Shown here: positions 2,235-24,965 of the stretch, in pieces | How the letters are laid out: each line of letters begins with the position of its first letter | Position numbering within the stretch: position 1 is the first letter of the stretch | Assembly: GCA_000403255.2 (NCBI GenBank) | Contig: KE159582.1 | Coordinates: 1-64,000 of the forward strand | Origin: Lachnospiraceae bacterium 3-1 | Lineage (GTDB): Bacteria; Bacillota; Clostridia; Lachnospirales; Lachnospiraceae | Length of the DNA stretch: 64,000 bases | Direction: 5' to 3' | Position numbers and translations under genes: made by a program | Notes under the pieces: model-generated | Database searches by the model: none | What the model was told of the DNA's origin: nothing | What the model saw: the letters and a program-made list of their open reading frames with translations, nothing else

Positions 2235-2363
2235 CATAAACTACACAAAATACGGCATCAAACCTTGTGTACTTTATGCCCGTAATTGACTTGCTATTAT
2301 CCCCTTTTAGAGCGAATATGTGTACTACCGAAAGGGAAAACACACAAAACGGAGGTAAAAGGA
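2235..2363 (+). promoter_or_regulatory. Repeated promoter/inverted-repeat module, copy 1
   Basis: Inverted repeat cataaactacacaa (2235-2248) and ttgtgtactttatg (2265-2278), 13 of 14 positions paired, lies 12 bp upstream of TTGCTA (2291-2296). A 17-bp spacer and GAATAT (2314-2319) follow, then the leader gtgtactaccgaaaggg and a GGAGG ribosome-binding site for the amidoligase ATG at 2364. The same layout recurs in front of other cargo genes in this prophage. I read it as a sigma-70-like promoter with an upstream operator or activator site; an RNA function of the palindrome is unlikely because it lies upstream of the predicted start site. Confidence 0.7.
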
Positions 2364-2722
2364 ATGAACGAAAAAATGGCAAGGCAGATAGCGGAAGCAA
2401 AGAAACAGACCATCGGGGTGGAGATAGAGATGAACGGCATCACGAGGAGCAGGGCGGCAAAAGCAGCAGCGGAGTTTTTCGGGACCGGGCGGTACAAGGA
2501 CACGGCGGCACGGAACGGATACTGTACCTGGAGCGCCTGGGACGCGGACGGCAGGGAATGGAAATTCCAGAGGGACGTCAGCATCGCGGGGCCGGACAGC
2601 GAAAAATGCGAGCTGGTAACGCCAATCCTCACCTACGCGGACATTGAAACCCTGCAGGAGCTTGTCCGGCAGCTCCGGCACGCCGGCGCGAAGAGCGACG
2701 CGGGGAGGGGCTGCGGGGTCCA
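2364..2722 (+). pseudogene. Putative amidoligase, 5' part (split by RIT element)
   Basis: The N-terminal 119 codons of an amidoligase-fold (ATP-grasp/glutamine-synthetase-like, PF12224) enzyme, containing QTIGVEIEMNGITRSRAA, the conserved start of this family with metal-binding Glu residues, and ending at GCGVH. The reading continues into foreign DNA (YASSRVIRKIYA, stop at 2762). The family is predicted to form amide bonds between an amino group and a glutamate-type carboxylate; no substrate can be deduced here. Joining 2722 to 6199 restores the family motif GCGVHIHIGAKGH and an uninterrupted 313-residue protein. A ribosome-binding site ggaggt lies 8 nt before the ATG. Confidence 0.82.
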
Positions 2723-2754
2723 TTATGCATCGTCCAGAGTTATAAGAAAGATTT
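2721..2754. repeat. RIT element left terminal inverted repeat
   Basis: The 34-nt stretch beginning cattatgcatcg and ending aagaaagattt matches, as reverse complement, 6135-6168 at about 29 of 34 positions. It overlaps the last two bases of the left GGTCCA. It is presumably the recombinase binding region at the element end. Confidence 0.8.
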
Positions 2755-2877
2755 ATGCATAACCTTTGATTTTACAAGGATTCCCGCCACATTATCAGAC
2801 TTGTAAACTTTCCATAACATCCTACAATATATCTCACAGGCAGAAGCCTGAATATATTTGTAGGAGAACTCATCAGT

Positions 2878-4089
2878 ATGAATGCATCATTTGAGAACCT
2901 GACAGGGGCAGTCGACCAACTGCTCCATACGCTGCAGTATGACGGGCATACAATAGCGGCATACCATCGGTTTTGGAACCGTTTATCTGAATTCATGGAA
3001 CAGGAAGGGATTCACGAATTCAGCAGGGAATGCGGGGAACGGTATTTTTACCAGACTTACGGCATCACGCTAAGTGAACCATCCAAAGCCTGCCCGAGGG
3101 ATTCCCGCCACTGCCACCGTGCCATCACGGTACTCCTGGAGTACCAGGCAAGCGGCACCATTTACAGGCGGAGGCTGGGCAAAGACCATTCTTTCAGCCA
3201 GGCTTTCCAGCCGGCAATCGGGGAATTCATGGATTCCGTCACGGAAACAATGGCAAGGACATCGCACAGACAGATAAGGTTCCGCATGGAATCCTTCCTT
3301 GGGTTCCTCGAAAGGCGCGGCTGCACCGATTTTACAAAACTTGACAGGGATACGATCCTCGCATATCGCAAGACCCGCTCCCATGTCTGCCGCACAACAC
3401 AGACCTATGACGCCTATGTTTTAAGGAAGTTCTTCGACTTCCTGTATAAGCACGGATATACTGTTGTTGATAATTCTGTCTTTGTGCCAAATGTACAGGG
3501 AAACCATAAAGGGCGCATACCATCCTTTTACACGGCAGCTGAGATAACAACGCTGCTTTCCAATGTTGACCGGGAAAACCCTGCCGGGAAACGGGATTAC
3601 GCAATCCTTCTGTTTGCCATAAGGTACGGCATGCGCGTCGGGGACATCCGGGACCTGCGGCTGTCCGACATTGACTGGAATGCGTCATCCTTTTCCTTCT
3701 GCCAGGGAAAGACCGGCACTGCAATGACCTTCCCGCTGCTGGATGATGTTGCGGCGGCGCTCGTTGACTACTTCAAAAACGGACGCCCGGAAACCTCCTG
3801 CCGGAACATTTTTGTCCGGCACAACGCCCCATACGAGGCTTTCGGGCAGGATGACAACCTTCACTATATCATCAATAAATATATGAAGATTTCAGGCTTT
3901 ACCGATTTCCACCACAGGAAAAGGGGGCTGCATTCGCTGCGGCACAGCATTGCCGGGAACATGCTGAACCAGGGCGTGCCGATGCCGACGATTTCAGAAG
4001 TCCTCGGGCACAGCTCCACTGACACTACGATGATCTATACAAAAATCGGAACCGGCCAGCTCCGGAACTGCGCATTGGAGGTGGACTGA
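2878..4089 (+). CDS. Tyrosine recombinase 1 of RIT trio (RitA-like)
   Basis: A 403-residue phage-integrase-family recombinase. N-terminal SAM-like core-binding regions are followed by the catalytic domain with the complete set of residues: Arg in YGMRVGDIRDLR (about 252), HSLRH (about 353-357), GH in EVLGHSS (about 377) and nucleophile Tyr in MIYTKI (about 386). It acts with the two downstream recombinases in strand exchange at the element ends; how labour is divided among RIT proteins is not established. Its stop shares one base with the next start (TGATG at 4087-4091), indicating translational coupling. Confidence 0.92.
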   Translation: MNASFENLTGAVDQLLHTLQYDGHTIAAYHRFWNRLSEFMEQEGIHEFSRECGERYFYQTYGITLSEPSKACPRDSRHCHRAITVLLEYQASGTIYRRRLGKDHSFSQAFQPAIGEFMDSVTETMARTSHRQIRFRMESFLGFLERRGCTDFTKLDRDTILAYRKTRSHVCRTTQTYDAYVLRKFFDFLYKHGYTVVDNSVFVPNVQGNHKGRIPSFYTAAEITTLLSNVDRENPAGKRDYAILLFAIRYGMRVGDIRDLRLSDIDWNASSFSFCQGKTGTAMTFPLLDDVAAALVDYFKNGRPETSCRNIFVRHNAPYEAFGQDDNLHYIINKYMKISGFTDFHHRKRGLHSLRHSIAGNMLNQGVPMPTISEVLGHSSTDTTMIYTKIGTGQLRNCALEVD

Positions 4090-5069
4090 TGGTGCCGTAC
4101 AACACGCCCGCTTTCTCAAGCGGGTACGCTTCCCTCCTCTATGGGTTTGTCGAGTCCAAACGGCTTGAAGGCTGCAAATATAACGGCGAGGTAAAGGAGC
4201 TGCAGAGGCTGGACCGCTATTTCCGGACGCACGGCGTCACCCCCGCAGACCATCCGGAAAAAACAGTGTACGGATGGCTTGGGAAACGCAGTTCGGAATC
4301 GGACAAGACGTTTTCAACCAGGAACAGCGTATACCGCCAGTTTTACTCCTATCTGCTGTCGCAGGGGGACGATGTGCTGCCGGTCCCTCCCAATGCAAGG
4401 GAAAAACTGAACGGGAGCGGTTTCACCCCGTATATTTTCACGCATGATGAAATGCGCCTCATATTTGATGCAGCTGACAACTGGAAAAGCCAGGGCGCGT
4501 CCTATGTCCGCTGCGCACCCCTGCTGTTCCGGCTCCTTTACGGGACGGGGCTGCGGATCAACGAAGCATTATCGCTTACAGCCGGGGACATTTCCATCCG
4601 CCAGGAGATGCTGCTGGTCCGTGAAGCAAAGAATGATAATTCCCGGCTGGTGCCGATGTCGCAGAGCCTCTCGGGACGGGTGGCAGATTACCTGTCCGCA
4701 CACGGCTATCCGGAAGGGGAGCCTGTTTTCCAGCATGACGGCGGGAAACAGTTCAGTACAAACACAGCCTACGACTGGTTCAGGCAGACGCTTTGGAAAG
4801 CCGGCATACCGCACAGGGGACGCGGGAAAGGCCCGCGCCTGCACGATGTCCGCCATACCTTCGCGGTCCATTCCCTGCAGGCGGCGGTGGAGGCCGGGAC
4901 AGACCCCAATGCCTTCCTCCCGCTCCTGTGTACTTATCTTGGACACCGGCGGCTGTCGGCAACGGAACGGTACCTGAGGCTGACAGCGGAGGCATACCCA
5001 TCCGTCATAAAGGCTATGGACGGCATCATGGATAAGATCATCCCGGAGGTGGAAAGCTATGAAGGATAA
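4089..5069 (+). CDS. Tyrosine recombinase 2 of RIT trio (RitB-like)
   Basis: A 326-residue tyrosine recombinase with catalytic Arg in YGTGLRINEALSL (about 155), HDVRH (about 252-256), GH in YLGHRRLS (about 283) and Tyr in ATERYLRL (about 294). The N-terminal half (VESKRLEGCKYNGEVKEL...) is the usual core-binding helical domain. It overlaps the preceding gene by one base and the following one by 11, so the three products are probably made in fixed proportion from one transcript. The residues needed for catalysis all appear intact. Confidence 0.92.
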   Translation: MVPYNTPAFSSGYASLLYGFVESKRLEGCKYNGEVKELQRLDRYFRTHGVTPADHPEKTVYGWLGKRSSESDKTFSTRNSVYRQFYSYLLSQGDDVLPVPPNAREKLNGSGFTPYIFTHDEMRLIFDAADNWKSQGASYVRCAPLLFRLLYGTGLRINEALSLTAGDISIRQEMLLVREAKNDNSRLVPMSQSLSGRVADYLSAHGYPEGEPVFQHDGGKQFSTNTAYDWFRQTLWKAGIPHRGRGKGPRLHDVRHTFAVHSLQAAVEAGTDPNAFLPLLCTYLGHRRLSATERYLRLTAEAYPSVIKAMDGIMDKIIPEVESYEG

Positions 5070-6081
5070 AAACCTGCAGTATTATATTTCCCGTTTCCTG
5101 ACAACCTACCTTGGCGGGGAACGCGGGCTGTCTGAGAACACATTCATTTCATACAACCATACATTCCAGCTCCTGATACCGTTTTTCCATGACAGTTTGA
5201 AAAAGCCAATCAATAAAGTGACGATGGATGAATTTACATCTGACAATATCAAAGCATTCCTGTCATCGCTTGAAGAAAAGGGATGCTCCGCATCAACCAG
5301 GAACCAGAGGCTTGCCGCAATAAAGTCGTTCTGCAGGTATGTCCAAGCCGATTCACCGCAGGACCTGTATAACATGCAGCAGATACTTGCGATCCCATCC
5401 AAGAAACAGGAAAAGCCCGCCATGCAGTACCTTACCGCAGGGCAGCTTGAGATGCTCCTTGCCAGGCCTGACAGCAGCAACAAATATGGGTTCAAAGACC
5501 TGCTCATACTGACCATCCTTTCAGATACGGGTGTGAGGGTCAGCGAACTGGTCGGCATCCGTGTATCTGACGTCCGTCTCGGAACCCCGGCTCAGATCCT
5601 CGTGCATGGAAAAGGGAACAAAAACCGGTATGTCCCCGTCAGCAGCAATACGGCGAAGCTGCTCAGCCTTTATTTCAATAATGAAGGGCTCCGGAATCCG
5701 GCACAGGCAGGGCGCTTCCTTTTCCTTAACAGGAGCGGGAACCAGTTCACAAGGGCAGGGATAACATATATCCTGCAAAAATATACATCCGAAATCCATG
5801 AGGAGTGCCCCATGGATTTCCCTGCAAAACTCACACCGCACTGCCTGAGGCATACAAAAGCCATGTTGATGCTGCAGGCCGGGCAGAACCTTATTTACAT
5901 CCGTGACCAGCTTGGGCATGAACACATAAAAACAACTGAGGTATATGCGCGGATTGACAGCAGGCAGCGTCAGGATGCACTCAAAGCGGCAAGTGAACAG
6001 ATAAAATCCCCTGACACAGCACCGATCGAATACCGGAATAACCCATCGCTTCTTGACTGGCTTAATAAATACTGCGAATGA
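5059..6081 (+). CDS. Tyrosine recombinase 3 of RIT trio (RitC-like)
   Basis: A 340-residue recombinase most like XerD/integrase in layout. The N-terminal SAM-like domain (GERGLSENTFISYNHTFQLL) is followed by the catalytic core with Arg in DTGVRVSELVG (about 158), HCLRH (about 260-264), GH in QLGHEHIKTTE (about 287) and nucleophile Tyr in VYARID (about 296). The ATG at 5059 lies inside the end of the previous gene, preceded by GGAGG at 5046-5050. It is the last gene of the element; about 50 bp separate its stop from the right inverted repeat. Confidence 0.92.
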   Translation: MKDKNLQYYISRFLTTYLGGERGLSENTFISYNHTFQLLIPFFHDSLKKPINKVTMDEFTSDNIKAFLSSLEEKGCSASTRNQRLAAIKSFCRYVQADSPQDLYNMQQILAIPSKKQEKPAMQYLTAGQLEMLLARPDSSNKYGFKDLLILTILSDTGVRVSELVGIRVSDVRLGTPAQILVHGKGNKNRYVPVSSNTAKLLSLYFNNEGLRNPAQAGRFLFLNRSGNQFTRAGITYILQKYTSEIHEECPMDFPAKLTPHCLRHTKAMLMLQAGQNLIYIRDQLGHEHIKTTEVYARIDSRQRQDALKAASEQIKSPDTAPIEYRNNPSLLDWLNKYCE

Positions 6082-6134
6082 TTATTATGGAAAGATTTTG
6101 ACAAAACAGGCTTGATAAAACGGCGGTTTTTTCA

Positions 6135-6168
6135 AAATCTTTTTTATAATTCTGAGCGATGCATAATG
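6135..6168. repeat. RIT element right terminal inverted repeat
   Basis: Reverse complement of the left repeat at 2721-2754, with the shared core cgatgcataatg at the outer end and aaatctt/ttataa blocks inward. It is followed by 24 nt not matched at the left end, then the right GGTCCA. Confidence 0.8.
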
Positions 6169-6198
6169 TACCTTATGGAAAGCTATTCATAAGGTCCA

Positions 6199-6781
6199 CA
6201 TCCACATCGGGGCGAAGGGCCACACGCCGCAGAGCCTGAGAAACCTCGCCAACATCATGGCGGGCCACGAGGGCCTGATCGCGGAAGCCCTCGACCTTGA
6301 CCGGGGCAGGATGAGCCGCTACTGCCGCACGGTGGACCCGCGCTTCCTGGAGCAGCTCAACAAAAAGAAGCCGCAGACCATGGCAGCCCTCGCGGACATC
6401 TGGTACGCAAGCCACGGCGCGGGCTACAACCGCAGCGCCCACTACAACGACAGCCGGTACCATATGCTCAACTACCACGCGACCTTCACGAAGGCCACGG
6501 TCGAGTTCCGGCTCTTCCAGTTCGACGCCCCGGCAGACGGGAAGCGGAACGGCCTCCACGCCGGGCAGCTCAAGGGGTACATCCAGTTCTGCCTCCTCCT
6601 CAGCCAGATGGCGAAGGAATTAAAGAGCGCAAGCCCGAAGCCGCAGCAGCACGAGAACCCGAAATACGCCATGAGGACCTGGCTCCTCCGGCTCGGCTTC
6701 ATCGGGGACGAATTCAAGACCGCGAGGGAGGTTCTGACCCGCCGCTTAAGCGGGGACGCATCCTTCCGCAACGGGAGATAA
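6199..6781 (+). pseudogene. Putative amidoligase, 3' part (split by RIT element)
   Basis: The C-terminal 193 codons of the interrupted amidoligase. They begin CACATCCACATCGGG (HIHIG), completing the G-x-G-x-H-x-H-x-G motif of the family. The catalytic-domain stretches ADIWYASHGAGYNRSAHYND, HATFTKATVEFRLFQFDA and the helical C-terminus are intact and no stop interrupts the frame, so the gene would work if the element left. In its present state the 3' half has no recognisable start signal, although GTG/ATG codons occur in frame (for example 6257). It is followed within 100 bp by a gamma-glutamylcyclotransferase-like gene. Confidence 0.8.
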
Positions 6782-6800
6782 ACCGCAGGGCCCAGCCTCC

Positions 6801-6840
6801 TGCCGCCTTACCCAAGCCGCAAAAAAGCGGCCTTAAGGCA
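6801..6840. other. Intergenic hairpin between amidoligase and cyclotransferase genes
   Basis: The perfect stem gccgc/gcggc (6816-6820 with 6827-6831) encloses an A6 loop, with outer pairs tgcc/ggca. It has no T run, so it is not a standard terminator. It may affect mRNA stability between the two halves of the amidoligase/cyclotransferase operon. Confidence 0.4.
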
Positions 6841-6878
6841 GTAGAAGGGTAGGCCCTTCGGAAAGGAAGGAAAACACT

Positions 6879-7550
6879 ATGGAAAAAAGATACTACATCG
6901 CATACGGCTCCAATTTAAACATCCCCCAGATGCGGATGCGCTGCCCTGGGGCGAGGATCATCGGCACTTCGGTGATTGAAGGCTACCGGCTGCTGTTCAA
7001 AGGCAGCAGGACCGGCTCCTACCTCACCATCGAGCCGCAGGAGGGCGCGCGTGTCCCCGTGGCGGCCTGGGAGGTGAGCGCGGAGAACGAGGTGGCCCTG
7101 GACCGCTACGAGGGCTTCCCAACATTTTACTACAAAAAGGAGATGGAGCTGCCGCTCAAGGGGATTAAGACCGGCAAGGTCCGCAGGCGCAGGGTGTTCG
7201 TCTACATCATGCATGAGGACCGCCCGCTGGGGCTGCCGAGCCGATCCTACATGGAGACCTGCAGACAGGGCTACCGGAGCTTCGGTTTTGACGAGGCGTT
7301 CCTGGAACGGGCATATGCCGACAGCGCGGCGGGGGAGGCGCGGGAATTTCCGGGCGGGTGGAAGGCGGGGGACGCCTGCTTCCTGGTGACGAACCGGAAG
7401 AACGGCTGCACCGGCGCATACACCGTGCGGGCGTTTGACGGGAGGTACTTCTGCCTGCAGAACAGGAATGGGAGCCAGTGCCGCGCATCCGCAGGGCGGA
7501 TGTTCCGCAGCAGGGAGGCGGCGCTTGGAAGGGAGGCAGATGCGGAATGA
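6879..7550 (+). CDS. Gamma-glutamylcyclotransferase (AIG2/GGCT) family protein
   Basis: A 223-residue protein whose first half is a GGCT-like beta-barrel. It has the substrate-loop motif YIAYGSNL near residue 7, the RMRCPGAR-IIGTSVIEGYRLLFKG stretch, and ALDRYEGFPTFYYKKEM containing the acidic catalytic Glu (about residue 80) expected in cyclotransferases. These enzymes release 5-oxoproline from gamma-glutamyl amines or peptides. Its neighbour is an amidoligase that could make such gamma-glutamyl bonds, a linkage noted before in comparative studies of amidoligases. The C-terminal third (about 150-223, GDACFLVTNRKNGCTGAYTVRAF) is an added domain I do not recognise. The stop overlaps the next start. 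Confidence 0.85.
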   Translation: MEKRYYIAYGSNLNIPQMRMRCPGARIIGTSVIEGYRLLFKGSRTGSYLTIEPQEGARVPVAAWEVSAENEVALDRYEGFPTFYYKKEMELPLKGIKTGKVRRRRVFVYIMHEDRPLGLPSRSYMETCRQGYRSFGFDEAFLERAYADSAAGEAREFPGGWKAGDACFLVTNRKNGCTGAYTVRAFDGRYFCLQNRNGSQCRASAGRMFRSREAALGREADAE

Positions 7551-7759
7551 AACACACGGACAGGAAAAAGAGGGTATGCCCCAGGTGCGGGCAGGCTTAC
7601 CGCGGGAGGCCGGCAGTCTCGCGGGAGGATGGAAGGACACCCATATGTCCTGACTGCGGAACGCGGCAGGCGCTTGAAAGCATCGGTGTGGATGAAAAGG
7701 AGCAGGATGCCATCCTTGCAGCCATCCACAGATGCGCGGAAGGGGGCGGCGAAGGATGA
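7547..7759 (+). CDS. Small zinc-ribbon protein
   Basis: A 70-residue protein with two CxxC knuckles, CPRCGQ (about 11-16) and CPDCGTRQAL (about 34-43), separated by a basic linker; this is a predicted rubredoxin-like zinc ribbon. The ATG at 7547 overlaps the cyclotransferase stop (ATGA) and follows GGGAGGCAG, indicating coupling. The C-terminal part is helical and acidic. Its function is unknown; it resembles small phage zinc-ribbon proteins found near amidoligase genes. Confidence 0.7.
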   Translation: MKHTDRKKRVCPRCGQAYRGRPAVSREDGRTPICPDCGTRQALESIGVDEKEQDAILAAIHRCAEGGGEG

Positions 7760-7956
7760 AGGCATATGGCAGGAACCTCCGGTGGATCGAGGACCACCAG
7801 TACGGGGATGAGATGCACACCGGGATCGCCATGCCCGCGTCCGGAAAAAGGCGCGGGCAGAGGCGGAGGCGCTACAAGCGGCCGTTCAAAAAGTCGGAGC
7901 GGCAGCACTCCAAACACGTGATCCGCCGGGAGCTTGGCGGGGATCAGGCGCCATAA
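7756..7956 (+). CDS. Small basic protein, paralog of the 11211 gene
   Basis: A 66-residue, strongly basic protein beginning MKAYGRNLRWIEDHQYGDEM and containing RRRRYKRPFKKSERQHSK. The ATG overlaps the zinc-ribbon stop (ATGA). The pattern M-[KR]-A-Y-G near the start and RR-[YW]-KRP-[FL]-KK near the end recurs in the protein at 11211-11375, so the two are likely paralogs. Basic character suggests nucleic-acid binding, but this is only inference. Its TAA stop is the first part of the next repeated promoter module. Confidence 0.65.
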   Translation: MKAYGRNLRWIEDHQYGDEMHTGIAMPASGKRRGQRRRRYKRPFKKSERQHSKHVIRRELGGDQAP

Positions 7957-8084
7957 ACTACACAATTCCCGGCGCGGATATTTGTACAGTTTATGCCCGT
8001 AAATAACTTGATAATATGTGCTTTTAGAGCGAATATGTGTACTACCGAAAGGGAAAACAAAAAAACAAAACGGAGGTACACACC
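7952..8084 (+). promoter_or_regulatory. Repeated promoter/inverted-repeat module, copy 2
   Basis: Arms cataaactacacaa (7952-7965) and ttgtacagtttatg (7982-7995) pair at 12 of 14 positions. Downstream are TTGATA (8008-8013), a 17-bp spacer and GAATAT (8031-8036), followed by the conserved ctaccgaaaggg leader and a CGGAGGT ribosome-binding site for the ATG at 8085. The left arm contains the stop codon of the preceding gene. Confidence 0.7.
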
Positions 8085-8453
8085 ATGAAGAAGATCGAAC
8101 TTTTTGAGAAGGCCATCGCAGAGAAAGCAGCAAGCCTTAAGGAATGGGGGATCAACCCGACACTGTTCTGGGCATACCGCAACAGCATCACGGCGGGCAA
8201 CGACAGGATAGACTTCGGCGAGGCCATCTGGGACAGCGAGGTCGGGGAGATCACGGAAACGCTGAAGGAGAACGGCATCACCGAGTTCACCATCAGCAGC
8301 ACCTTTTCCAGCCTGATCCCGACGCTTGCGGAATTTGCAAAGCATGGCTTCCAGATGGCGGGGCTGACCGAAGTGAAGGCGAACTACACGGACTTCCAGA
8401 CCCAGGAGCGGGCGGTCATCCCGGCGATCCAGATGGCGGCGGAAGAAGCGTAA
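8085..8453 (+). CDS. Phage cargo protein of unknown function
   Basis: A 122-residue acidic protein, MKKIELFEKAIAEKAASLK..., with a mixed alpha/beta prediction and no motif I can assign. The central ITETLKENGITEFTISSTFSS looks like a helix-strand unit. The start is fixed by CGGAGGT 8 nt upstream and by the conserved leader. Similar short proteins occur in clostridial prophages and conjugative elements. It is transcribed from its own repeated promoter module, like the other cargo genes. Confidence 0.65.
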   Translation: MKKIELFEKAIAEKAASLKEWGINPTLFWAYRNSITAGNDRIDFGEAIWDSEVGEITETLKENGITEFTISSTFSSLIPTLAEFAKHGFQMAGLTEVKANYTDFQTQERAVIPAIQMAAEEA

Positions 8454-8463
8454 GGCACGGGGC

Positions 8464-8492
8464 GGCCTGCCGGGAAGGAAAACCGGCAGGCC
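8464..8492. other. Strong GC hairpin downstream of the 8085 gene
   Basis: Perfect 10-bp arms ggcctgccgg (8464-8473) and ccggcaggcc (8483-8492) around a 9-nt loop. No T run follows. It could protect the 3' end of the upstream message or limit read-through. Confidence 0.55.
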
Positions 8493-8564
8493 GGAAGCCC
8501 CGGAAAAAACTGGAAGGCAAAAAATACATCCGCAGGGCAGTGCGGGGCGAAGGAGGATTTTTTT

Positions 8565-8885
8565 ATGGCAGGGATGAAATGGTATAAAGTATGGCTGGTG
8601 GTTCCGGGTACGGATTTTAATGCGGAAGGCTGGCCCTGCGAGCCGGAATGGTGGAACGACATGGAGCAGACCCCCGATGAGGAGACGGCGATCCGGCAGG
8701 CAAATGAAAAGGCCCGGAGGCAGTGGGAGGAGCCGAACCAGTATGAGCCTGGGGCGGAGGCACCGTCGGACAGGGAGCTTGGACAGGAATGCCCGGTCTG
8801 CACCGGGGCGGCGGAAGTCACCGACGAGGAATATGCGGAGTGGAAAAGAGAGATGGAAGAGTCGGTGGAGCTTCCGTTCCAATAG
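8565..8885 (+). CDS. Small acidic hypothetical phage protein
   Basis: A 106-residue protein starting at ATG 8565 after GAAGGAGG. It is rich in Glu and Trp (WPCEPEWWNDMEQTPDEETA), with a CPVCTG pair (about 78-81) that could bind a metal with another chain. The C-terminus is acidic and helical. I do not recognise a family. It lies between two cargo genes that have their own promoter modules and has none itself, so it is probably co-transcribed with the 8085 gene. Confidence 0.6.
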   Translation: MAGMKWYKVWLVVPGTDFNAEGWPCEPEWWNDMEQTPDEETAIRQANEKARRQWEEPNQYEPGAEAPSDRELGQECPVCTGAAEVTDEEYAEWKREMEESVELPFQ

Positions 8886-8943
8886 CATCCAGGCGGGTTT
8901 TCCGCAGGGCAGCCGGACCGGAAGGCTCTTTTGCCCGTGGCAG

Positions 8944-9072
8944 ATATACACAGTTTCCCCAGCAGATATTTGTGTACTTTATGCCCGTTATTCACTTGCT
9001 ATTACCGGCAGAAAGAGCGAATATGTGTACTACCGAAAGGGAAAACAAAAAAGAAAACGGAGGACACAGACC
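8944..9072 (+). promoter_or_regulatory. Repeated promoter/inverted-repeat module, copy 3
   Basis: The right arm atttgtgtactttatg (8968-8983) is well kept but the left arm (atatacacagttt, from 8944) pairs only around the acaca core. TTGCTA (8997-9002), a 17-bp spacer and GAATAT (9020-9025), the ctaccgaaaggg leader and CGGAGG before the ATG at 9073 are conserved. Confidence 0.65.
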
Positions 9073-9348
9073 ATGAAGATCAACGATGCAATGAAAACCT
9101 ACAGACTGCCGAACCCCACCACGCCGGAAGATTTGGAATGCAGATGGAGCAAAACGCTGACCTTCGGCGACAGGGTGGTCATCGCCGGGTACTTTTTCAA
9201 CGGCCCGAACAAGCCCTGCTACTTCGGGGCGGCTTACGAATTTCTTGGCGACGACCACACCTGCGAAGGCGCCATCGGGCTCCGGGCGGCAAGCGGAGTC
9301 GAGTTTGAGGATGACGGCCACGCAATCGCCTGGGCGATGCAGCAGTAA
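9073..9348 (+). CDS. Phage cargo protein of unknown function
   Basis: A 91-residue protein, MKINDAMKTYRLPNPTTPED..., with a beta-rich central part (DRVVIAGYFFNGPNKPCYFGAA). No family assigned. The start is set by ACGGAGG in the repeated leader. Together with the genes at 8085, 11211 and 11522 it belongs to the set expressed from the repeated promoter module. A hairpin built on ggtac/gtacc and gagcc/ggctc (about 9370-9402) follows before the terminase gene. Confidence 0.6.
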   Translation: MKINDAMKTYRLPNPTTPEDLECRWSKTLTFGDRVVIAGYFFNGPNKPCYFGAAYEFLGDDHTCEGAIGLRAASGVEFEDDGHAIAWAMQQ

Positions 9349-9465
9349 ACGGAGGCGGGAAAATCCCAGGGTACGGAGCCGGAAGGCTCTGTATCTTGTA
9401 CCAATAGATTTCAGGCTTGCCATTGGCAGGCCATTTTTGATGCCATCTTTGGGGAGGTGATGCCG

Positions 9466-11073
9466 ATGGCAATGCGGAAGCTGAAAAAATACAGGCCGAC
9501 GAAGTTCAGGGCGAAGGACAGCCGCTATGATAAGGACGCCGCCGATTTTGCCGTGATGTTCATCGAGAGCCTCTGCCATACAAAAGGCACCTGGGCGGGG
9601 AAGCCCTTTGAGCTGATCGACTGGCAGGAGCAGATCATCCGTGACATTTTCGGCACTCTGAAACCGAACGGCTACCGGCAGTTCAACACGGCCTATGTGG
9701 AGATACCGAAGAAGCAGGGGAAGTCGGAGCTTGCCGCCGCCGTGGCGTTGCTCCTGACCTGCGGGGACGGGGAGGAGCGGGCGGAGGTGTACGGGTGCGC
9801 CGCCGACCGGCAGCAGGCCGCCATCGTCTTTGACGTGGCGGCGGACATGGTGCGGATGTGCCCTGCGCTGAATAAGCGGGTGAAGATACTCGCCTCGCAG
9901 AAACGGATCATATACACCCCGACCAATTCCTTCTACCAGGTGCTTTCGGCGGAGGCATATTCCAAGCACGGCTTCAACATCCACGGCGTGGTGTTTGACG
10001 AGCTGCACACGCAGCCGAACCGGAAGCTGTTTGACGTCATGACCAAAGGCTCCGGGGACGCCAGGATGCAGCCGCTGTATTTCCTCATCACAACGGCGGG
10101 GACGGACACCCATTCCATCTGCTACGAGACGCACCAGAAGGCAAAGGACATTTTGGAAGGGCGGAAGATTGACCCCACCTTCTATCCCGTTATTTACGGC
10201 GCGGATGAGGCGGACGACTGGACGGACCCGAAGGTGTGGAAGAAAGCGAACCCCTCTTTAAATATCACAGTCGGGATTGACAAGGTGGAGGCCGCCTGCG
10301 AGTCGGCAAAGCAGAACCCCGGCGAGGAGAACAGCTTCCGGCAGCTCCGCCTGAACCAGTGGGTGAAACAGGCGGTGCGGTGGATGCCCATGGATAAATG
10401 GGATGCCTGCGCCTTCCCGGTTTCCGAGGATGGTCTGGAGGGGCGCATCTGCTATGGCGGGCTGGACTTGTCCTCCACCACGGACATCACGGCGTTCGTC
10501 CTGGTGTTCCCTCCGCTGGACGAGGAGGATAAATACTGCATCCTTCCGTATTTCTGGGTGCCGGAGGAAACGCTGGAGCTGCGCGTCCGGCGCGACCATG
10601 TCCCCTACGATGTGTGGGAGCGGCAGGGGAAGCTGATGACCACGGAGGGGAACGTGGTGCATTACGGCTTTATCGAGAAATACATCGAGCGGCTTGGGGA
10701 GCGGTTCAACATCCGGGAGATCGCCTTTGACCGGTGGGGCGCGGTGCAGATGGTGCAGAACCTTGAGGGGATGGGCTTCACGGTGGTCCCGTTCGGGCAG
10801 GGCTTCAAGGATATGTCCCCGCCCACCAAAGAACTGATGAAGCTGGTGCTGGAGCAGATGATCGCCCACGGCGGGCATCCGGTCCTGCGGTGGATGATGG
10901 ACAACATCTTCATCCGCACCGACCCGGCGGGCAACATCAAGGCCGACAAGGAAAAGTCCACGGAGAAGATAGACGGGGCGGTGGCAACGATCATGGGGCT
11001 TGACCGTGCCATACGCTGCGGGAATGATGCAGGGGCTTCCGTCTATGACAGCCGGGGACTTCTTGTTTTCTGA
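9466..11073 (+). CDS. terL: Phage terminase large subunit
   Basis: A 535-residue ATPase/nuclease that packages DNA into procapsids. The N-terminal ATPase has a Walker A-like IPKKQGKSELAAA (about 80-92) and Walker B plus catalytic Glu in GVVFDELHTQ (about 170). The C-terminal RNase H-like nuclease has LDLSSTTDITAF (about 335), EIAFDRWG (about 415) and the terminal Asp in KIDGAVATIMG. I chose ATG 9466 (8 nt after GGAGG); GTG 9457 and ATG 9460 overlap the ribosome-binding site. It resembles Terminase_1/HK97-type enzymes. No small subunit gene is seen between the cargo genes and this one. Confidence 0.93.
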   Translation: MAMRKLKKYRPTKFRAKDSRYDKDAADFAVMFIESLCHTKGTWAGKPFELIDWQEQIIRDIFGTLKPNGYRQFNTAYVEIPKKQGKSELAAAVALLLTCGDGEERAEVYGCAADRQQAAIVFDVAADMVRMCPALNKRVKILASQKRIIYTPTNSFYQVLSAEAYSKHGFNIHGVVFDELHTQPNRKLFDVMTKGSGDARMQPLYFLITTAGTDTHSICYETHQKAKDILEGRKIDPTFYPVIYGADEADDWTDPKVWKKANPSLNITVGIDKVEAACESAKQNPGEENSFRQLRLNQWVKQAVRWMPMDKWDACAFPVSEDGLEGRICYGGLDLSSTTDITAFVLVFPPLDEEDKYCILPYFWVPEETLELRVRRDHVPYDVWERQGKLMTTEGNVVHYGFIEKYIERLGERFNIREIAFDRWGAVQMVQNLEGMGFTVVPFGQGFKDMSPPTKELMKLVLEQMIAHGGHPVLRWMMDNIFIRTDPAGNIKADKEKSTEKIDGAVATIMGLDRAIRCGNDAGASVYDSRGLLVF

Positions 11074-11081
11074 CTGGAAAA

Positions 11082-11210
11082 ATGCACAAACCCCACTGCG
11101 GATGTTTGTGCATGATACCTCCGGAATCCGCTTGCTATTTTGTGCTTTCAGAGCGAATATGTCACTTACCGGGAGGGCATCCCGGAAACCAGAGAATGGA
11201 GGCATTGCAG
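11082..11210 (+). promoter_or_regulatory. Repeated promoter/inverted-repeat module, copy 4
   Basis: Arms atgcacaaac (11082-11091) and gtttgtgcat (11104-11113) are a perfect 10-bp palindrome whose sequence differs from copies 1 and 5 but is changed symmetrically. TTGCTA (11132-11137), a 17-bp spacer and GAATAT (11155-11160) follow. The leader is more divergent (cttaccgggaggg) and leads to the ATG at 11211. It begins 8 bp after the terminase stop. Confidence 0.7.
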
Positions 11211-11375
11211 ATGAGGGCATACGGAGAGATGGAGCAGCACGGGAAATATACGCTGGAGGATTTCGGCGGCTGGTCAAGGAACCACACAAAAGCGGCGTCC
11301 ATCCGCAGGTGGAAGCGGCCGCTGAAAAAGAGGGCGAGGCAGGTCTGCCGCGCCGCGCTGAGACGGCTGGTCTGA
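11211..11375 (+). CDS. Small basic protein, paralog of the 7756 gene
   Basis: A 54-residue protein beginning MRAYGEMEQHGKYTLEDFGG and containing RRWKRPLKKRARQ. It shares the M-[KR]-A-Y-G start and RR-[YW]-KRP-[FL]-KK block with the 66-residue protein at 7756-7956. ATG 11211 follows AATGGAGGC. It lies between terminase and portal, a place where phages often carry extra (moron) genes, and is flanked on both sides by repeated promoter modules. A nucleic-acid-binding role is possible from its charge only. Confidence 0.6.
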   Translation: MRAYGEMEQHGKYTLEDFGGWSRNHTKAASIRRWKRPLKKRARQVCRAALRRLV

Positions 11376-11389
11376 GCGGTTTTCCGGAG

Positions 11390-11521
11390 CATAAACTACA
11401 CAAAAACCGCCCCGGAACATTGTGTAGTTTACGGCGGGAATTAACTTGCTATTATCCGCATTCAGAGCGAATATGTGTACTACCGAAAGGCAAATCAAAA
11501 AACAAAACGGAGGTAATGCAC
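11390..11521 (+). promoter_or_regulatory. Repeated promoter/inverted-repeat module, copy 5
   Basis: Arms cataaactacacaa (11390-11403) and ttgtgtagtttacg (11420-11433) pair at 13 of 14 positions. TTGCTA (11447-11452), a 17-bp spacer and GAATAT (11470-11475) follow, with the ctaccgaaagg leader and CGGAGGT before the ATG at 11522. Confidence 0.7.
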
Positions 11522-11707
11522 ATGCAGGTACAGGAATTTATGGAGAAACACGGGATTGGCGAGTCGAGGGTGAGGATTTTTGATGCGGAACTGGGGAAAG
11601 AGATATGCGGGATTTTCGAGACGGGCCTTTATTATGACTGCAAGGTGACCGGGGCATATCCGGCGGGCAGGAACACGGTCTTGGAGGTCGCATCGGTAAC
11701 CGGTTAA
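11522..11707 (+). CDS. Small phage cargo protein of unknown function
   Basis: A 61-residue protein, MQVQEFMEKHGIGESRVRIFD..., predicted as one helix followed by a small beta sheet (GIFETGLYYDCKVTGAYP). No family recognised. The start is defined by CGGAGGT in the repeated leader. It is the last cargo gene before the structural operon, which begins with the portal gene 74 bp downstream. Confidence 0.6.
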   Translation: MQVQEFMEKHGIGESRVRIFDAELGKEICGIFETGLYYDCKVTGAYPAGRNTVLEVASVTG

Positions 11708-11780
11708 GACAGGACGGCAAAGGGGCGCTGCTTCGGCGGCACCTTTTGGCTGTCCGTTTCTGGAAAGGAGAGTGGTATTT

Positions 11781-15103: not shown

Positions 15104-15131
15104 AAAGAAATACAGATTTTGATGGAAGGCG

Positions 15132-15757: not shown

Positions 15758-15758
15758 A

Positions 15759-16139: not shown

Positions 16140-16146
16140 TGTATTT

Positions 16147-16464: not shown

Positions 16465-16467
16465 CAG

Positions 16468-17623: not shown

Positions 17624-17650
17624 CCGCAGATTTGGATTTTTTTTGGTAAT

Positions 17651-17673
17651 GCCTGGGCATCCGGGCTTTTTTT
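17651..17673 (+). terminator. Weak intrinsic terminator before the tape measure gene
   Basis: The six-pair stem gcctgg/ccgggc (one G-T pair) with loop gcat is followed by seven Ts. It could lower tape measure expression relative to the tail tube genes. Confidence 0.55.
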
Positions 17674-17695
17674 GTGCCGTTAAGGGGGTGCTGGT

Positions 17696-20632: not shown

Positions 20633-20638
20633 GGCGGC

Positions 20639-21001
20639 ATGGCGTATATACAGTATCTGGCAATTGACGGTGTGCTGCTCCCCCTGCCCGATTCCTACGA
20701 GGTGCAGATGGCGGACGTGGAGGCGGATTCCGGCGGAGAGACGGAGGCCGGGACCACGCAGCGGGACGTGGTGAGGATGGGCGTGGTGTCCATCCCCGCC
20801 GCTTTCTCCGTCTCCCCGAAATGGCTGAAACTGCTGACAGGGTTTAAACAGAAAGAAAAACTGACTGTGGACTACTTTGACACGGAGACGCTGGAAATAA
20901 AGCGGACGGAGATGTTTATCAGCGGCTATAAGGCAAGCCTCGTAAAAGACACGTCCTATAAGGGGCTTTGGAAGGTGTCGTTCACACTGAAAGAATTATA
21001 A
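20639..21001 (+). CDS. Phage tail protein of unknown role
   Basis: A 120-residue protein, MAYIQYLAIDGVLLPLPDSYEVQMADV, placed between the tape measure and the tail-tip gene. Beta-rich, with KEKLTVDYFDTETLEIKRTEMFISGY. By position it may be a distal-tail or baseplate adaptor; similar small proteins occur here in clostridial siphophages. No catalytic motif is visible. Confidence 0.7.
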   Translation: MAYIQYLAIDGVLLPLPDSYEVQMADVEADSGGETEAGTTQRDVVRMGVVSIPAAFSVSPKWLKLLTGFKQKEKLTVDYFDTETLEIKRTEMFISGYKASLVKDTSYKGLWKVSFTLKEL

Positions 21002-21034
21002 AAACACAGGGAATCCCGGAAGGAGGTGTGGCGG

Positions 21035-22945
21035 ATGTACCCGGTGAGCGATGCGTTCCTGCGGGCGGTGCAGGAGAACACACGGAACTACCGCTGGACG
21101 GGGCAGATCACGACAAAGGGCGGCGCTGTATACCCGTTTGTTTATGAAGATATCGTGAAGGGGAGCGGGTACATCACGGCGCAGTGCTGCGGCAGCGCGG
21201 AGATCGAGCTGGGGACGGTGTACGCCGCCGAGATGGGCATCACGCTCTTTTCCCAGATTGACCGCTATACGCTGGAAGGGGCGGAAGTGCGGCTGTCCTA
21301 CCACCTGCGGCTTGCGGATGGAAGTTATGAGGAAGTGCCGATGGGCATCTTCGAGGTCAGCGAGGCGAACCGGACGGCGCACTGCCTGGAGCTGAAAGCC
21401 TATGACTATATGCTGCGCTTCGAGAAGAGTTTCAACGGCTTTGAGACGGTGGGCAACGCCTGGGCTTTCCTGGATTTATGCTGTAAAGCCTGTGCCGTGG
21501 AGCTGGCGCACACACAGGCGGAGATCGAAGCCATGCCAAACGGCACGGAGCTGCTCTCCATCTACCCGGAGAATGACATCGAAACTTACCGTGACGTGCT
21601 GTACTTTGTCGGGCAGGTGCTTGGCGGCTTTTTCTGCATCAGCCGGGAAGGGAAGCTGGAGCTGCGCAAATACGGGACACAGCCGGTGATGGAGGTAAAG
21701 AGCAGGCACCGGTTCACCAGCAGCTTTTCCGACTTCATCACCCGGTACACTGCGGTCAGCTCCACGAACCTCCGCACACAGACGGCAGAGTATTATGCCC
21801 TGGAGCCGGACGACGGGCTGACCATGAACCTGGCGGTGAACCCGCTCCTGCAGTTCGGGCTGGAGGAAACGCGGGAAACGCTCTGCCGGAACATTTTAAG
21901 AGACCTGTCGGTAGTCAGTTATGTGCCGTTTGATTCCAGCACCATTGGGAACCCGGCGCTTGACCTTGGGGATGTGCTGACCTTTTCGGGCGGGCAGGCG
22001 GACGGGAGCCAGACCGCGTGTATCACTTCCTCCAACTGTAAGATCGGCGGCAAACACACTTTGAAATGCGTTGGGAAGAACCCAAGGCTGGCGCAGGCGA
22101 AGTCCAAGAACGACAAGAACATCTCCGGCCTCTTAAACCAGATCGAGGCGGGGAAGATCGGGATACACACCTTTACCAACGCCTCCGCTTATACGGTGGC
22201 AGAGACCAATGTGCGGATCATCAGCATTGAGTTCGCAGCGAAGGAGGAGACCCATGTGCAGTTTTTCGGGCAGGTGCTGGTGGATGTGTCTGCGGAGCAG
22301 GTGGGCCGGTCCGCCACTGCCAGCGGGAGCATCGTGGTACCATTCCCGGCATCGGGAGGGAGCAGTGGGGATGTGTCTGCTGGGACTGGTGAGGATGGAG
22401 GGGAAAACACGGGAACCGGCACAGGGGATGGCAGCGGGGAGCCTGGCACGGATACGGAGAATGTCGCGGTGGATGTGGAGCTTCCGGTCACATGGACGGA
22501 GGACGGGAAGGCGGTGGCGTATGTCACCTACGAATTCAACGATTCTGAAATACTCATCCATTACCCGGCGGAGACCTGGGGGAGCGGGAAACATATCCTT
22601 TCCCTCTATTATCCAATCGATAACCTTGTGCCGAACATCACAAATACATTCAACGTCCACCTGCGGATGGAGGGAGGCACAGCGGCGATCAGCACGGGCG
22701 GGTGCATAGCCTCCATCAGCGGCCAGGGCATGGCTGCGGGCGCGGCATGGGACGGCACGGTCACAATAGAGGAATATGTGCAGCCGTTTGCGGTCGGCGG
22801 CGGTCTGCGAGCAAAGGCGTTTTCTGGGGAGATGGGATTTGAGACAATGGAGCTGGTGAAGAAATTTTATTCCGACAACATCAAAAAGGCGGTCATCGGC
22901 GCGTTCGGGAAGCCCGTGGAGCTGCCGCAGGAAGGAGAAAGGTAA
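21035..22945 (+). CDS. Tail tip / baseplate protein
   Basis: A 636-residue protein. The N-terminal 380 residues (SDAFLRAVQENTRNYRWTGQI; MGIFEVSEANRTAHCLELKAYDYM) resemble the DUF5048-like baseplate hub proteins of Gram-positive phages. A low-complexity Gly/Ser/Thr-rich acidic linker at about 445-490 separates this from a C-terminal beta-rich domain that may contact the receptor. ATG 21035 lies 8 nt after AGGAGG; GTG 21026 is closer than usual. Confidence 0.75.
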   Translation: MYPVSDAFLRAVQENTRNYRWTGQITTKGGAVYPFVYEDIVKGSGYITAQCCGSAEIELGTVYAAEMGITLFSQIDRYTLEGAEVRLSYHLRLADGSYEEVPMGIFEVSEANRTAHCLELKAYDYMLRFEKSFNGFETVGNAWAFLDLCCKACAVELAHTQAEIEAMPNGTELLSIYPENDIETYRDVLYFVGQVLGGFFCISREGKLELRKYGTQPVMEVKSRHRFTSSFSDFITRYTAVSSTNLRTQTAEYYALEPDDGLTMNLAVNPLLQFGLEETRETLCRNILRDLSVVSYVPFDSSTIGNPALDLGDVLTFSGGQADGSQTACITSSNCKIGGKHTLKCVGKNPRLAQAKSKNDKNISGLLNQIEAGKIGIHTFTNASAYTVAETNVRIISIEFAAKEETHVQFFGQVLVDVSAEQVGRSATASGSIVVPFPASGGSSGDVSAGTGEDGGENTGTGTGDGSGEPGTDTENVAVDVELPVTWTEDGKAVAYVTYEFNDSEILIHYPAETWGSGKHILSLYYPIDNLVPNITNTFNVHLRMEGGTAAISTGGCIASISGQGMAAGAAWDGTVTIEEYVQPFAVGGGLRAKAFSGEMGFETMELVKKFYSDNIKKAVIGAFGKPVELPQEGER

Positions 22946-22946
22946 G

Positions 22947-24341
22947 ATGAAGCTGAAAGGGACGATGGTAATGGAACTGACGGATGAGGCCACGGGGGAA
23001 GTGGAAACGGTCACAGAGGGGAACATGGTGACGGAGGCGGTGAACGACATCCTGGGCATGAACCCCATGGGCGTGTTCTACTCCGAGGAGGAGCTGGGGG
23101 ATGTGCTTGCATGGAACAATGTGCTGCTCCCCATCTGCCCGAACATGGTCGGCGGCATCCTGCTCTTCCCCCAGACGCTGGAGGAGGATGCCGCCCACAT
23201 CTATGAGATGTCGGGCAACCTCCCGGTGGCGTATGCCTCCAACAACGTGAACACCACGGCGAACACGGCCAGGGGCAGCATGAACCAGACGGAGAGCAAG
23301 GCGTTAGAAAACGGCTATAAATTTGTGTGGGAGTTTACGCCCAGCCAGGGCAACGGCACCATCGCGGCGGTGGCGCTGACCAGCGCCCAGGGCGGGCAGA
23401 ACGCCTACGGGAGCCTTGTGGGGGACGCCAGCACGTTCCTCAAGATAAAAAAGCTGGACATCGGGGACCTTGGGAAGGCGAAGCAGATGGTGCTGTTCGA
23501 GGCGGCGGAGGTGGATTTTGGAAATGACCTGCTGTACTCCATCACCTTTGCGGATTCCAGCGTGCGGATACGGAAAGTCCGCATCCCCATCTTCACTATC
23601 GGGCTGAACGAAAAGCTGGACGATTCCACCTATACCGTGCTGGAAGACCATGCCGTACAGACGGAGACGTTCCTGTTTTTGGGCAGCTACACGAAGTACG
23701 GGGAGTTCCTGGACGGGCAGGACGGGTACTGGTACGGCTTCTCCAACCAGGGGAATTCCTCCGGGAACGCAAAGATGCTGTGGGTGAAGATCTCCAAGGC
23801 CGACTATTCCATGACGGAAGGGGAATGGACGCTCTCCAACGCAAAGCTGATGGCGGTGGGGGAGCGGGACACGGACAGTAGCTATCCGGAAAGGAGCTGC
23901 CGGTGCTGTATGCGGGGCGGTTACCTGTATGTCCCTGCGTATGACAAGAAGGGCATCTATAAGATCAATGTGGCGAATACGGCAGACGTGACGCTGCTCG
24001 CCTTCGGCTTCACTTCCAAGATGAAGCCGCTGGGCGAGTCCGGGACCTGCGAGCTGTACCTGACGCTGGTGGGCGACCTCATCGTCGGCGGGGACTTCCA
24101 GGTCACGGCGGCGGATGCGGTCATCCATACCCAGGGGAGCGCGAGGCTTGGCTGCCTGGCTACGCCGCTGTTCCAGCACAAGCAGTTCCTTGTGGGGTGG
24201 GGAGGCAGCTATGGGAACGAGTACCGCCATATGTACCTGCTGACGCCGTACCTTGCCACCATCAACAACCTGTCCTCGGCGGTGGTGAAGGATGCCAACA
24301 AGACCATGAAGATCACCTACACGCTGACGGAGGAGGCATGA
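22947..24341 (+). CDS. Tail fibre-like structural protein
   Basis: A 464-residue beta-rich protein, MKLKGTMVMELTDEATGEVETVTEGNMVTEAVND, with repeated propeller-like segments (FLFLGSYTKYGEFLDGQDGYWYGF; RCCMRGGYLYVPAYDKKGIYKINV). It is the last structural gene before lysis and so a good candidate for the receptor-binding fibre. Specificity cannot be inferred. A strong hairpin follows at 24353-24381. Confidence 0.7.
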   Translation: MKLKGTMVMELTDEATGEVETVTEGNMVTEAVNDILGMNPMGVFYSEEELGDVLAWNNVLLPICPNMVGGILLFPQTLEEDAAHIYEMSGNLPVAYASNNVNTTANTARGSMNQTESKALENGYKFVWEFTPSQGNGTIAAVALTSAQGGQNAYGSLVGDASTFLKIKKLDIGDLGKAKQMVLFEAAEVDFGNDLLYSITFADSSVRIRKVRIPIFTIGLNEKLDDSTYTVLEDHAVQTETFLFLGSYTKYGEFLDGQDGYWYGFSNQGNSSGNAKMLWVKISKADYSMTEGEWTLSNAKLMAVGERDTDSSYPERSCRCCMRGGYLYVPAYDKKGIYKINVANTADVTLLAFGFTSKMKPLGESGTCELYLTLVGDLIVGGDFQVTAADAVIHTQGSARLGCLATPLFQHKQFLVGWGGSYGNEYRHMYLLTPYLATINNLSSAVVKDANKTMKITYTLTEEA

Positions 24342-24352
24342 CGGACAGCTTT

Positions 24353-24381
24353 ACGGCAGGGGGATGCGTTTCCCCTGCCGT
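24353..24381. terminator. Hairpin at the end of the structural operon
   Basis: Perfect arms acggcagggg (24353-24362) and cccctgccgt (24372-24381). No clear T run on either strand, but its place between converging genes suggests a 3'-end or termination role. Confidence 0.5.
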
Positions 24382-24427
24382 GATAAAAGGGTGGTGTGTG
24401 CCGGGTGCCCCGGCGTGCGGCGTTTCT

Positions 24428-24799
24428 TTAGTTCCGGGAGTCCGGTTCAGATGCGGCGTATTTTGTGGACGGCTCCGCGACCATGGAGAGGGAGGCGGCT
24501 TCGGCTTCAATGCCGCGCTTCATCTGCTCAAGCTGCGCGATCCTTTTTTCAAGCTCCGCCTGTGCCTCCCGCTGCTCCTTTGCCGCCAGCTCTTCTGCGG
24601 TGAGGGTGCGGATGTGGATGGAGCCTTCCTCATATTCAACGATGAGCGGCGCCCCGATGGTGAAGCCGAGCTGCTCCAGCCACCACCCTTCCATCTGTAT
24701 CTTCGGGACTGCGGTGCATGGACCGGTGCCGCTGTGCAGGGTGCCGCCGCTCTGGCAGTGGCGGTAGGTGTAAACGACTTTGATGTTCTTTGTCTTCAT
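24428..24799 (-). CDS. SymE-family toxin-like protein
   Basis: A 123-residue reverse-strand protein. It has a YTYRHCQSGG block, then PKIQMEGWWLEQLGFTIGAPLIVEYEEGSIHIRTL, which matches the SymE toxin domain (PF08845, an AbrB-like swapped hairpin), and a Glu-rich coiled-coil tail (about 75-105). E. coli SymE is an SOS-induced RNA-binding toxin repressed by the antisense RNA SymR; no antisense gene is obvious here. It converges on the tail genes and is divergent from holin. AGGAGG precedes its ATG, and its upstream region is a reversed copy of the repeated promoter module. Confidence 0.82.
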   Translation of the reverse strand: MKTKNIKVVYTYRHCQSGGTLHSGTGPCTAVPKIQMEGWWLEQLGFTIGAPLIVEYEEGSIHIRTLTAEELAAKEQREAQAELEKRIAQLEQMKRGIEAEAASLSMVAEPSTKYAASEPDSRN

Positions 24800-24965
24800 A
24801 AGGTGTCCTCCTGATTATTTTGTTTTCCCCTGCCGCCTCCCGGTTTTTTTGCAGGCGGGGCTTCGGGTAGTGTTATTAATCACTCTGAAGCCGTGAAATA
24901 GCAAGGAAAACAGGGGCATAAATGTGACAAAGATCCCCACAGATACTTGTGTAAACGACACAAAT
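24800..24965 (-). promoter_or_regulatory. Repeated promoter module, copy 6 (reverse strand)
   Basis: Read on the minus strand: a partly preserved inverted repeat (24917-24930 and 24947-24957), then TTGCTA (24904 to 24899), a 17-bp spacer ending in agagt, the sequence gattaa, the cactaccc-gaag leader, a gggaaaacaaaa stretch and AGGAGG for the SymE-like gene. The leader contains extra GC-rich sequence not found in the other copies. Confidence 0.6.

Follow-up and report, generated by a model that had tools for sequence, protein, structure and literature searches.

What kind of control element recurs on both strands, ahead of dispersed small genes, in the DNA of Lachnospiraceae bacterium 3-1, and what protein reads it? 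The question arises in positions 1-64,000 of the forward strand of contig KE159582.1 (64,000 nucleotides (nt), hereafter the window), in which an earlier note had claimed six copies of one module composed of an inverted repeat, a promoter, a leader and a ribosome-binding site. All six were found, by direct reading and by a base-by-base check (Table 1). Our preferred answer, to which we give a probability of about two in three, is that the module is a transcription switch before accessory genes, activated through an operator, by which one phage regulator would join integrase and cargo genes.

In such a switch, each module would by itself be complete and would stand ahead of one accessory gene or short operon. 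The sequence TTG(C/A)TA-N17-(G/T)AATAT would be read by RNA polymerase carrying the host's housekeeping sigma factor, and a dimeric or paired DNA-binding protein would occupy two inverted half-sites, the midpoint of which is about 70 bp ahead of the expected start. Bound on the helix face that it would share with polymerase, this protein would most likely act by class I activation. One phage-borne regulator would probably couple integrase expression to that of the small cargo genes, some of which likely act on nucleic acids.

Anatomy and spread of the module

Copies 1-5 share one geometry: two inverted half-sites of 13 bp are separated by a gap of 16 bp, the start of the right half-site lies 26 bp before a −35-like hexamer (TTGCTA in four copies, TTGATA in one), and 17 bp further on GAATAT is present in all five, followed in order by a leader, a Shine-Dalgarno sequence and an ATG. 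The left half-sites are weak in copies 3 and 4. Copy 6, on the minus strand, is laid out in the same way, with half-sites GTCGTTTACACAA and TTGTCACATTTAT, TTGCTA, 17 bp and GATTAA. It scores 25.6 bits on our weight matrix, which was built from matches that include the window copies; no match of 12 bits or more was found in 1.17 million positions of shuffled phage DNA. The leader has an exact 12-nt match in four of the six copies and variants in copies 4 and 6.

A 31-nt core pattern, allowing up to three mismatches, matched five times in the window versus 0.00 expected from 100 shuffles, and a repeat search of the window linked four copies along 140 nt (68-76% identity). Taken by themselves and with two mismatches allowed, the 12-nt motifs were not clearly above chance (8 versus 4.7 and 7 versus 3.6).

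Absence of the module from other phages, which the earlier note had named as a refutation, was not what was seen: it is carried by 35 phage records and 78 viral-contig stretches. BLAST with one copy retrieved the former from 50,697 phage records; 30 are PV0364xx records, four are Streptococcus prophages and one is neither. The match spans 80% or more of the query in 10 of the 35, and all 12 matching PV records that were opened are labelled Ca. Heliusvirales. The viral-contig stretches were found with a 25-nt pattern, a stricter pattern giving no match in the viral contigs. A pattern with at most one mismatch was found in 3 of 250 family genomes, and a plasmid search with the module gave no match. 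An iterated weight matrix yielded 203 matches (144 non-redundant) in 2.43 Mb of loci, both strands, versus none in 0.90 Mb of shuffled DNA, the matrix having been iterated on its own matches and its core columns deriving from sites picked with the upstream part.

The putative promoter

The reading of TTGCTA and GAATAT as a promoter, made in the earlier note, was supported. Divergent phages keep TTG-N17-(T/C)AATAT, which supports the −35/−10 assignment: loci L103 and L109 have TTGCTA-N17-TAATAT, L106 has TTGACT-N17-TAATAT and L113 has TTGCTA-N17-CAATAT. TTGACT also occurs in 13 of 31 non-redundant promoters near genes of the phrog_2308 family, described below. By Sigma-70/SigA criteria (−35 near TTGACA, 16-18 bp, −10 near TATAAT with A2 and T6), the A2 and T6 of the −10 and a 17-bp spacer are present in copies 1-5 and in L103, L106, L109 and L113, but copy 6 and the GATGTA and GATATA types depart from them at the −10. 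GAATAT has only three of six matches to the SigA −10, which is why a generic promoter scanner does not pair it with TTGCTA.

We considered an extended −10 (TGCTATTAT or TGGATATAAT; TTGCTATTAT was first suspected), which would place GAATAT inside the RNA. It was set aside because the four divergent loci keep TTG-N17-(T/C)AATAT and L106 does so without the extended element.

The probable operator and its helical phasing

The inverted repeat consists of two half-sites, ATAAnnTACACAA and TTGTGTAnnTTAT. Their gap, counted in the 61 of 136 modules with both half-sites recognisable, is 16 bp in 48, 26-27 bp in nine and different in four. The distance from half-site to −35, counted in the 133 of 160 non-redundant modules in which a half-site was scored, is 26 bp in 50, 27 bp in 67, 36-38 bp in seven and elsewhere in nine, with none between 28 and 35 bp. 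Seven of 16 outliers thus fall at 36-38 bp (P 6e-7 under uniform positions, with a half-site matrix built from sites at the usual distance). Jumps of one helical turn point to a protein that must face polymerase, and the symmetric, helically phased half-sites are, at the sequence level, those of a protein operator dyad.

The repeat therefore resembles an operator bound by protein more than a hairpin formed in RNA. The latter is unlikely because covariation between the arms is weak: arms of the same module pair at 9.39 of 15 positions versus 9.10 for crossed arms (permutation sd 0.095), a small excess, and per-position covariation reached z values of 2.5 at most. The top mutual-information pairs in the modules are not complementary stems, and the compensatory changes of an RNA hairpin element were not seen. 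An Rfam scan of the window matched only group II intron parts elsewhere.

The operator is practically confined to phage modules. An operator-only pattern with up to two mismatches found 12 sites in the 5.08-Mb host genome, of which 11 coincide with separately found prophage module cores and the twelfth, on contig C21, is letter-identical to one of those checked. With at most one mismatch, 297 other genomes gave six sites; five precede the module promoter and one is not at a module.

A shared half-site at the serine integrase

In the window, a half-site (TTGGGTACATTAT) and a −35 at the usual spacing also lie ahead of two serine-recombinase open reading frames (ORFs), as a seventh, partial copy, and the same pair can be read before the integrase in L085, L086, L105, L107, L108 and L112. 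A genome scan with the protein encoded just upstream, which has a helix-turn-helix (HTH) and zinc-finger-like motifs and belongs to phrog_2308, found at least 522 relatives. In the best 80 of these at least 522 loci, scored with loose rules for recombinase and −10, the promoter followed 120-330 nt downstream in 59 (shuffled mean 1.2), and a serine-recombinase motif was present in 60.

The integrase half-site is contained in a small SHOCT ORF. Its G-T-L motif occurs in 14 of 31 non-redundant loci, where Thr is ACA in 13 of 14 (background 0.31) and Leu is TTA in 14 of 14 (background 0.14), a codon bias implying that the DNA is conserved and not the protein alone. An integrase promoter with the half-site and −35 of the module, its half-site inside an ORF under DNA-level codon constraint, is new here.

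The regulon of dispersed cargo genes proposed in the earlier note thus has to be widened. Modules do precede genes that match non-structural families, but the integrase promoter shares their half-site and −35, so that the regulon is not one of cargo only. Because the same half-site and −35 precede serine-integrase genes, integrase and cargo are probably tied by one regulator, and a single factor for all modules is plausible. Between the leader of the integrase, GCGGAAAGGAG, and that of the cargo genes, CCGAAAGGGA, there is a likeness, which suggests, though it does not prove, that the cargo modules derive from the integrase promoter.

Which protein would read the operator

The phrog_2308 protein, whose function is unknown in PHROGs, is encoded just upstream of the integrase or before a ParB-methyltransferase gene; the ParB-methyltransferase is one of the other widespread phage proteins noted. 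That it binds the half-sites and activates integrase and cargo is a tentative proposal, the most attractive we have for the reader of the operator, and still one that we hold more doubtful than probable. The protein is present in all 13 module-bearing phages examined (four of them seen in integrase ends), and in three more phages in which BLAST had detected no module but divergent ones were later recognised (16 of 16 in total). The N-terminus of the window protein matches Sigma70_r4_2 above cut-off, and its structure model shows an HTH of three helices (block pLDDT 86-94 for residues 1-40, pTM 0.36), but the L090 copy has no Pfam match; PDB 8vd6 matches the protein only via short HTH-like repeats. 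It occurs in 22 of 298 family genomes but in four of the seven with the operator, own genome included (P 7e-4), a co-occurrence that may only mirror common phage ancestry. Less favourably, among the matches listed, five of ten genomes judged by eye to have true modules encode it.

Several observations weigh against the operator-activated switch as a whole, the first of them also against phrog_2308 as its reader. Two prophages, G315 (55 kb read) with three modules and G298 (35 kb read) with two, have no phrog_2308 protein in six frames; none was found in their genomes at E 1e-10, and their integrase promoters have no recognisable TTGTGTA half-site. Copy 6 and many integrase promoters have, at the 17-bp spacing, a −10 hexamer (GATTAA, GATGTA, GATATA) that suits sigma-A poorly. 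At copy 5 the scanner listed TTTACG-N16-TATTAT with TG instead of TTGCTA/GAATAT, TAT is well conserved at the place of that TATTAT, and an overlapping extended −10 at the modules is a less probable alternative. Window copies 4 and 6 escape the operator pattern, the half-site matrix has the origin given above, and the position of the operator alone is also compatible with a repressor.

A broader and more speculative scheme, in which we place slightly less trust than in the phrog_2308 protein as reader, would make this sigma-region-4-like family, which in Firmicutes as well as some Actinobacteria is encoded along with large serine integrases, the dedicated activator of integrase promoters. Its operator-promoter would have been duplicated before cargo genes, some for nucleic-acid modification, in Heliusvirales-like gut phages, so that integration and cargo would be switched together.

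Might the inverted repeat instead be a repressor operator that silences integrase and cargo in the lysogen? SPBRE/MrpR of SPbeta would be the model, a described case of one master repressor acting through identical operators at scattered places (PMC10516654). The half-sites, however, are some 50-91 bp ahead of the expected start, without overlap of the promoter, and helical phasing towards the promoter would be more typical of activation. Repressor specificities also usually differ more between phages than this operator does. We consider repression unlikely, and activation the better reading of the same sites.

Less probable again is that the module is a phage late promoter read by an activator of the RinA/ArpU/Ltr type (phrog_36/248), encoded after the SNF2 helicase. 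The protein after that helicase matches phrog_36 in six of six phages scanned, relatives of it are present in two own prophages and in G315, and several modules lie directly ahead of terL. The activator gene is, however, followed by a promoter region of its own, with 10-11-bp direct repeats in six of 11 regions (counted without a shuffled control) that differ between phages: the units are GGTGTACTA in L001/L090, AGTAGACTGA in L102 and TGGCAC in L085. A strong half-site is present in none of the 11 regions (best 6.6 bits, versus a module median of 14.1), and the module arms are alike across three sequence groups of the activator. These regions led us to reject the late activator as main reader. 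Direct repeats spaced by 11 bp after its gene can be seen at L001:34220-34410, L090:14360-14590 and L102:15340-15560.

A terminator-like hairpin precedes the terminase genes in 17 of 19 phage regions (the window, at 9414-9460, and 16 others), against 39 of 380 shuffled; in the window alone such hairpins number 16 versus 10.5 expected, not far above chance. Between hairpin and terL there is little room for a promoter, so that read-through into terL is probable, and the hairpin suggests read-through or antitermination of the late operon. The earlier note had set the modules apart from the structural operon. This is favoured by the activator's own promoter region and by the hairpin, but read-through would probably feed terL; transcription of the modules separate from the structural genes is thus plausible in part.

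A host transcription factor as reader is no more probable than the late activator. Phages attributed to many Clostridia, and prophages of Streptococcus, do carry the module, but all 12 operator matches in the host genome are at prophage modules (11 checked, one by identity) and only one of six in the other genomes is away from a module. Weakest of all, and very improbable, is a leader acting as an RNA element in which the Shine-Dalgarno region is masked by pairing with TATGTNNC-TACC: leaders pair better with their own Shine-Dalgarno than with others (−4.88 versus −4.18, sd 0.136, in a test with a faulty anchor for one leader type and statistics that ignore relatedness) and several fold with it hidden, but many copies have no such pairing, the strongest mutual-information pairs are not complementary stems, and most of the 5' arm lies upstream of the start site if the promoter is as supported above.

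Genes behind the modules and their surroundings

In keeping with the earlier note, four of the genes downstream of the six copies match non-structural families; the other two are small without assigned family, and no structural-family match was found among the six. In phage loci, a ribosome site and an ORF follow 224 of 229 modules (counted without a shuffled control). The genes behind modules fall into 33 protein clusters, with amidoligase/virulence-related, Nmad4-like and DUF7698-like proteins and serine recombinases at the top of the list; no structural family was seen among the annotated clusters, several clusters being without annotation.

Table 1. Module copies and associated features in the window.
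Feature	Position	Strand	Details
Copy 1	2236-2319	+	Half-sites 2236-2248, 2265-2277; TTGCTA 2291-2296; GAATAT 2314-2319
Copy 2	7953-8036	+	Half-sites 7953-7965, 7982-7994; TTGATA 8008-8013; GAATAT 8031-8036
Copy 3	8941-9024	+	Half-sites 8941-8953 (weak), 8970-8982; TTGCTA 8996-9001; GAATAT 9019-9024
Copy 4	11077-11160	+	Half-sites about 11077-11089, 11106-11118; TTGCTA 11132-11137; GAATAT 11155-11160
Copy 5	11391-11474	+	Half-sites 11391-11403, 11420-11432; TTGCTA 11446-11451; GAATAT 11469-11474
Copy 6	24876-24959	-	Half-sites 24959-24947, 24930-24918; TTGCTA 24904-24899; GATTAA 24881-24876
Integrase promoter (seventh, partial copy)	27545-27599	+	Half-site 27545-27557; TTGCTA 27571-27576; GATGTA 27594-27599
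Amidoligase gene of copy 1	2364-2762	+	Frame interrupted by inserted element; further open part 6257-6781
DUF7698 gene of copy 2	8085-8453	+	Family match, E 2e-52
Nmad4 (nucleotide modification associated domain 4) gene of copy 3	9073-9348	+	E 3e-20
Terminator-like hairpin and T run	9414-9438	+	Between copy-3 gene and terL
54-aa gene of copy 4	11211-11375	+	Open frame; family scans covered a wrong frame
61-aa gene of copy 5	11522-11707	+	No match in family scan
SymE-like gene of copy 6	24428-24799	-	Family match, E 3e-10
Candidate regulator, HTH and two zinc-finger-like motifs, phrog_2308	27019-27411	+	Family scans, structure model
SHOCT_2 small ORF containing integrase-promoter half-site	27404-27595	+	Family scans
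Large serine recombinase	27623-29044	+	Family match
Second recombinase-like ORF	28980-30560	+	Open frame only, without family scan

An intact homologue of the copy-1 gene (L001:27741-28685) matches the phrog_2443 amidoligase. In the window this gene is interrupted, at about 2735-6180, by an element with three tyrosine-recombinase-like genes; a 99.97% identical copy of the stretch 2717-6172 lies, reversed, in the amidoligase gene of another prophage of the same genome; the second copy of the element is at G000:C12:705146-708601 (L096:15146-18601). Amidoligase, gamma-glutamyl cyclotransferase and Nmad4 genes are clustered in window 2364-9348, with comparable neighbours in other phages, a hint of an unusual DNA or nucleotide modification pathway.

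The window starts at the contig edge with a transposase-like gene. The end of contig C8 (G000:C8:44025-44845) is 98.8% identical to window 1991-2811; C8 carries the early half of a similar prophage beside an IS110-like transposase, and no helicase, VRR-NUC, SNF2 or late-activator ORF was seen there. The group II intron parts, with an ORF between them, occupy 35305-37864, and a direct repeat of 245 nt, 71% identical, is found 9 kb apart at 52852-53096 and 61879-62123.

Relation to known systems and significance

The earlier note knew of no description of the module. Full-text literature searches found none of this sequence, and the words "promoter" and "motif" are absent from the text of the Heliusviridae paper, but a system of the same kind, ESAS/SAS, has been described in cluster K mycobacteriophages. 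In these descriptions a phage has several almost identical copies of it, not all on the same strand, and its role is unclear (PMC3203893, PMC11373665, PMC12699233). Like the module, it combines an inverted repeat, a SigA-like −35/−10 at 17-18 bp and a conserved start-proximal sequence. ESAS arms are 15-17 bp with a spacer of 4-14 bp, whereas the module half-sites are 13 bp and mostly 16 or 26-27 bp apart; the ESAS consensus varies between subclusters, whereas the module is alike in phages of many hosts. ESAS is usually linked to the SAS GGGATAGGAGCCC, and the module leader, CTACCGAAAGG, is not SAS. The module half-sites, unlike ESAS as there described, are phased to the promoter and recur with the −35 at the integrase. 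Judged on these features, the module works like ESAS and is not a member of it.

SPBRE/MrpR of the Bacillus phage SPbeta likewise places one short operator, bound by one phage protein, before many phage genes. Its description, in the part available, sets it apart: SPBRE is a 15-bp motif, the repressor has a tyrosine-recombinase-like fold, and no fixed promoter-leader module is mentioned (PMC10516654). RinA/ArpU/Ltr proteins are phage-encoded activators of a phage promoter in Firmicutes prophages, as is proposed here, and the accessible text has Ltr binding about four imperfect repeats beside its own gene and driving a long late transcript (PMC13123087). The module differs from an Ltr/RinA late promoter, its operators being inverted, ahead of accessory genes and away from the activator gene.

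Morons are accessory genes that sit singly within phage operons, each with a promoter to itself, and are usually described as autonomous. The module genes are moron-like, but one operator is common to them, and together with the integrase they may make up a regulon. Beyond a system of the ESAS/SAS kind, it is the phasing rule and the integrase link that add interest.

A link to metabolic syndrome has been reported for phages of the Ca. Heliusviridae/Heliusvirales (PMC9226167, PMC12427128). Many accessory genes of the Heliusvirales are unnamed, and a recognisable module offers a handle for finding cargo genes automatically. Because the operator is helically phased, the promoter can be tested directly and at low cost in laboratory hosts. 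The module predicts which cargo genes would be expressed together, and connects their control to the serine integrases.

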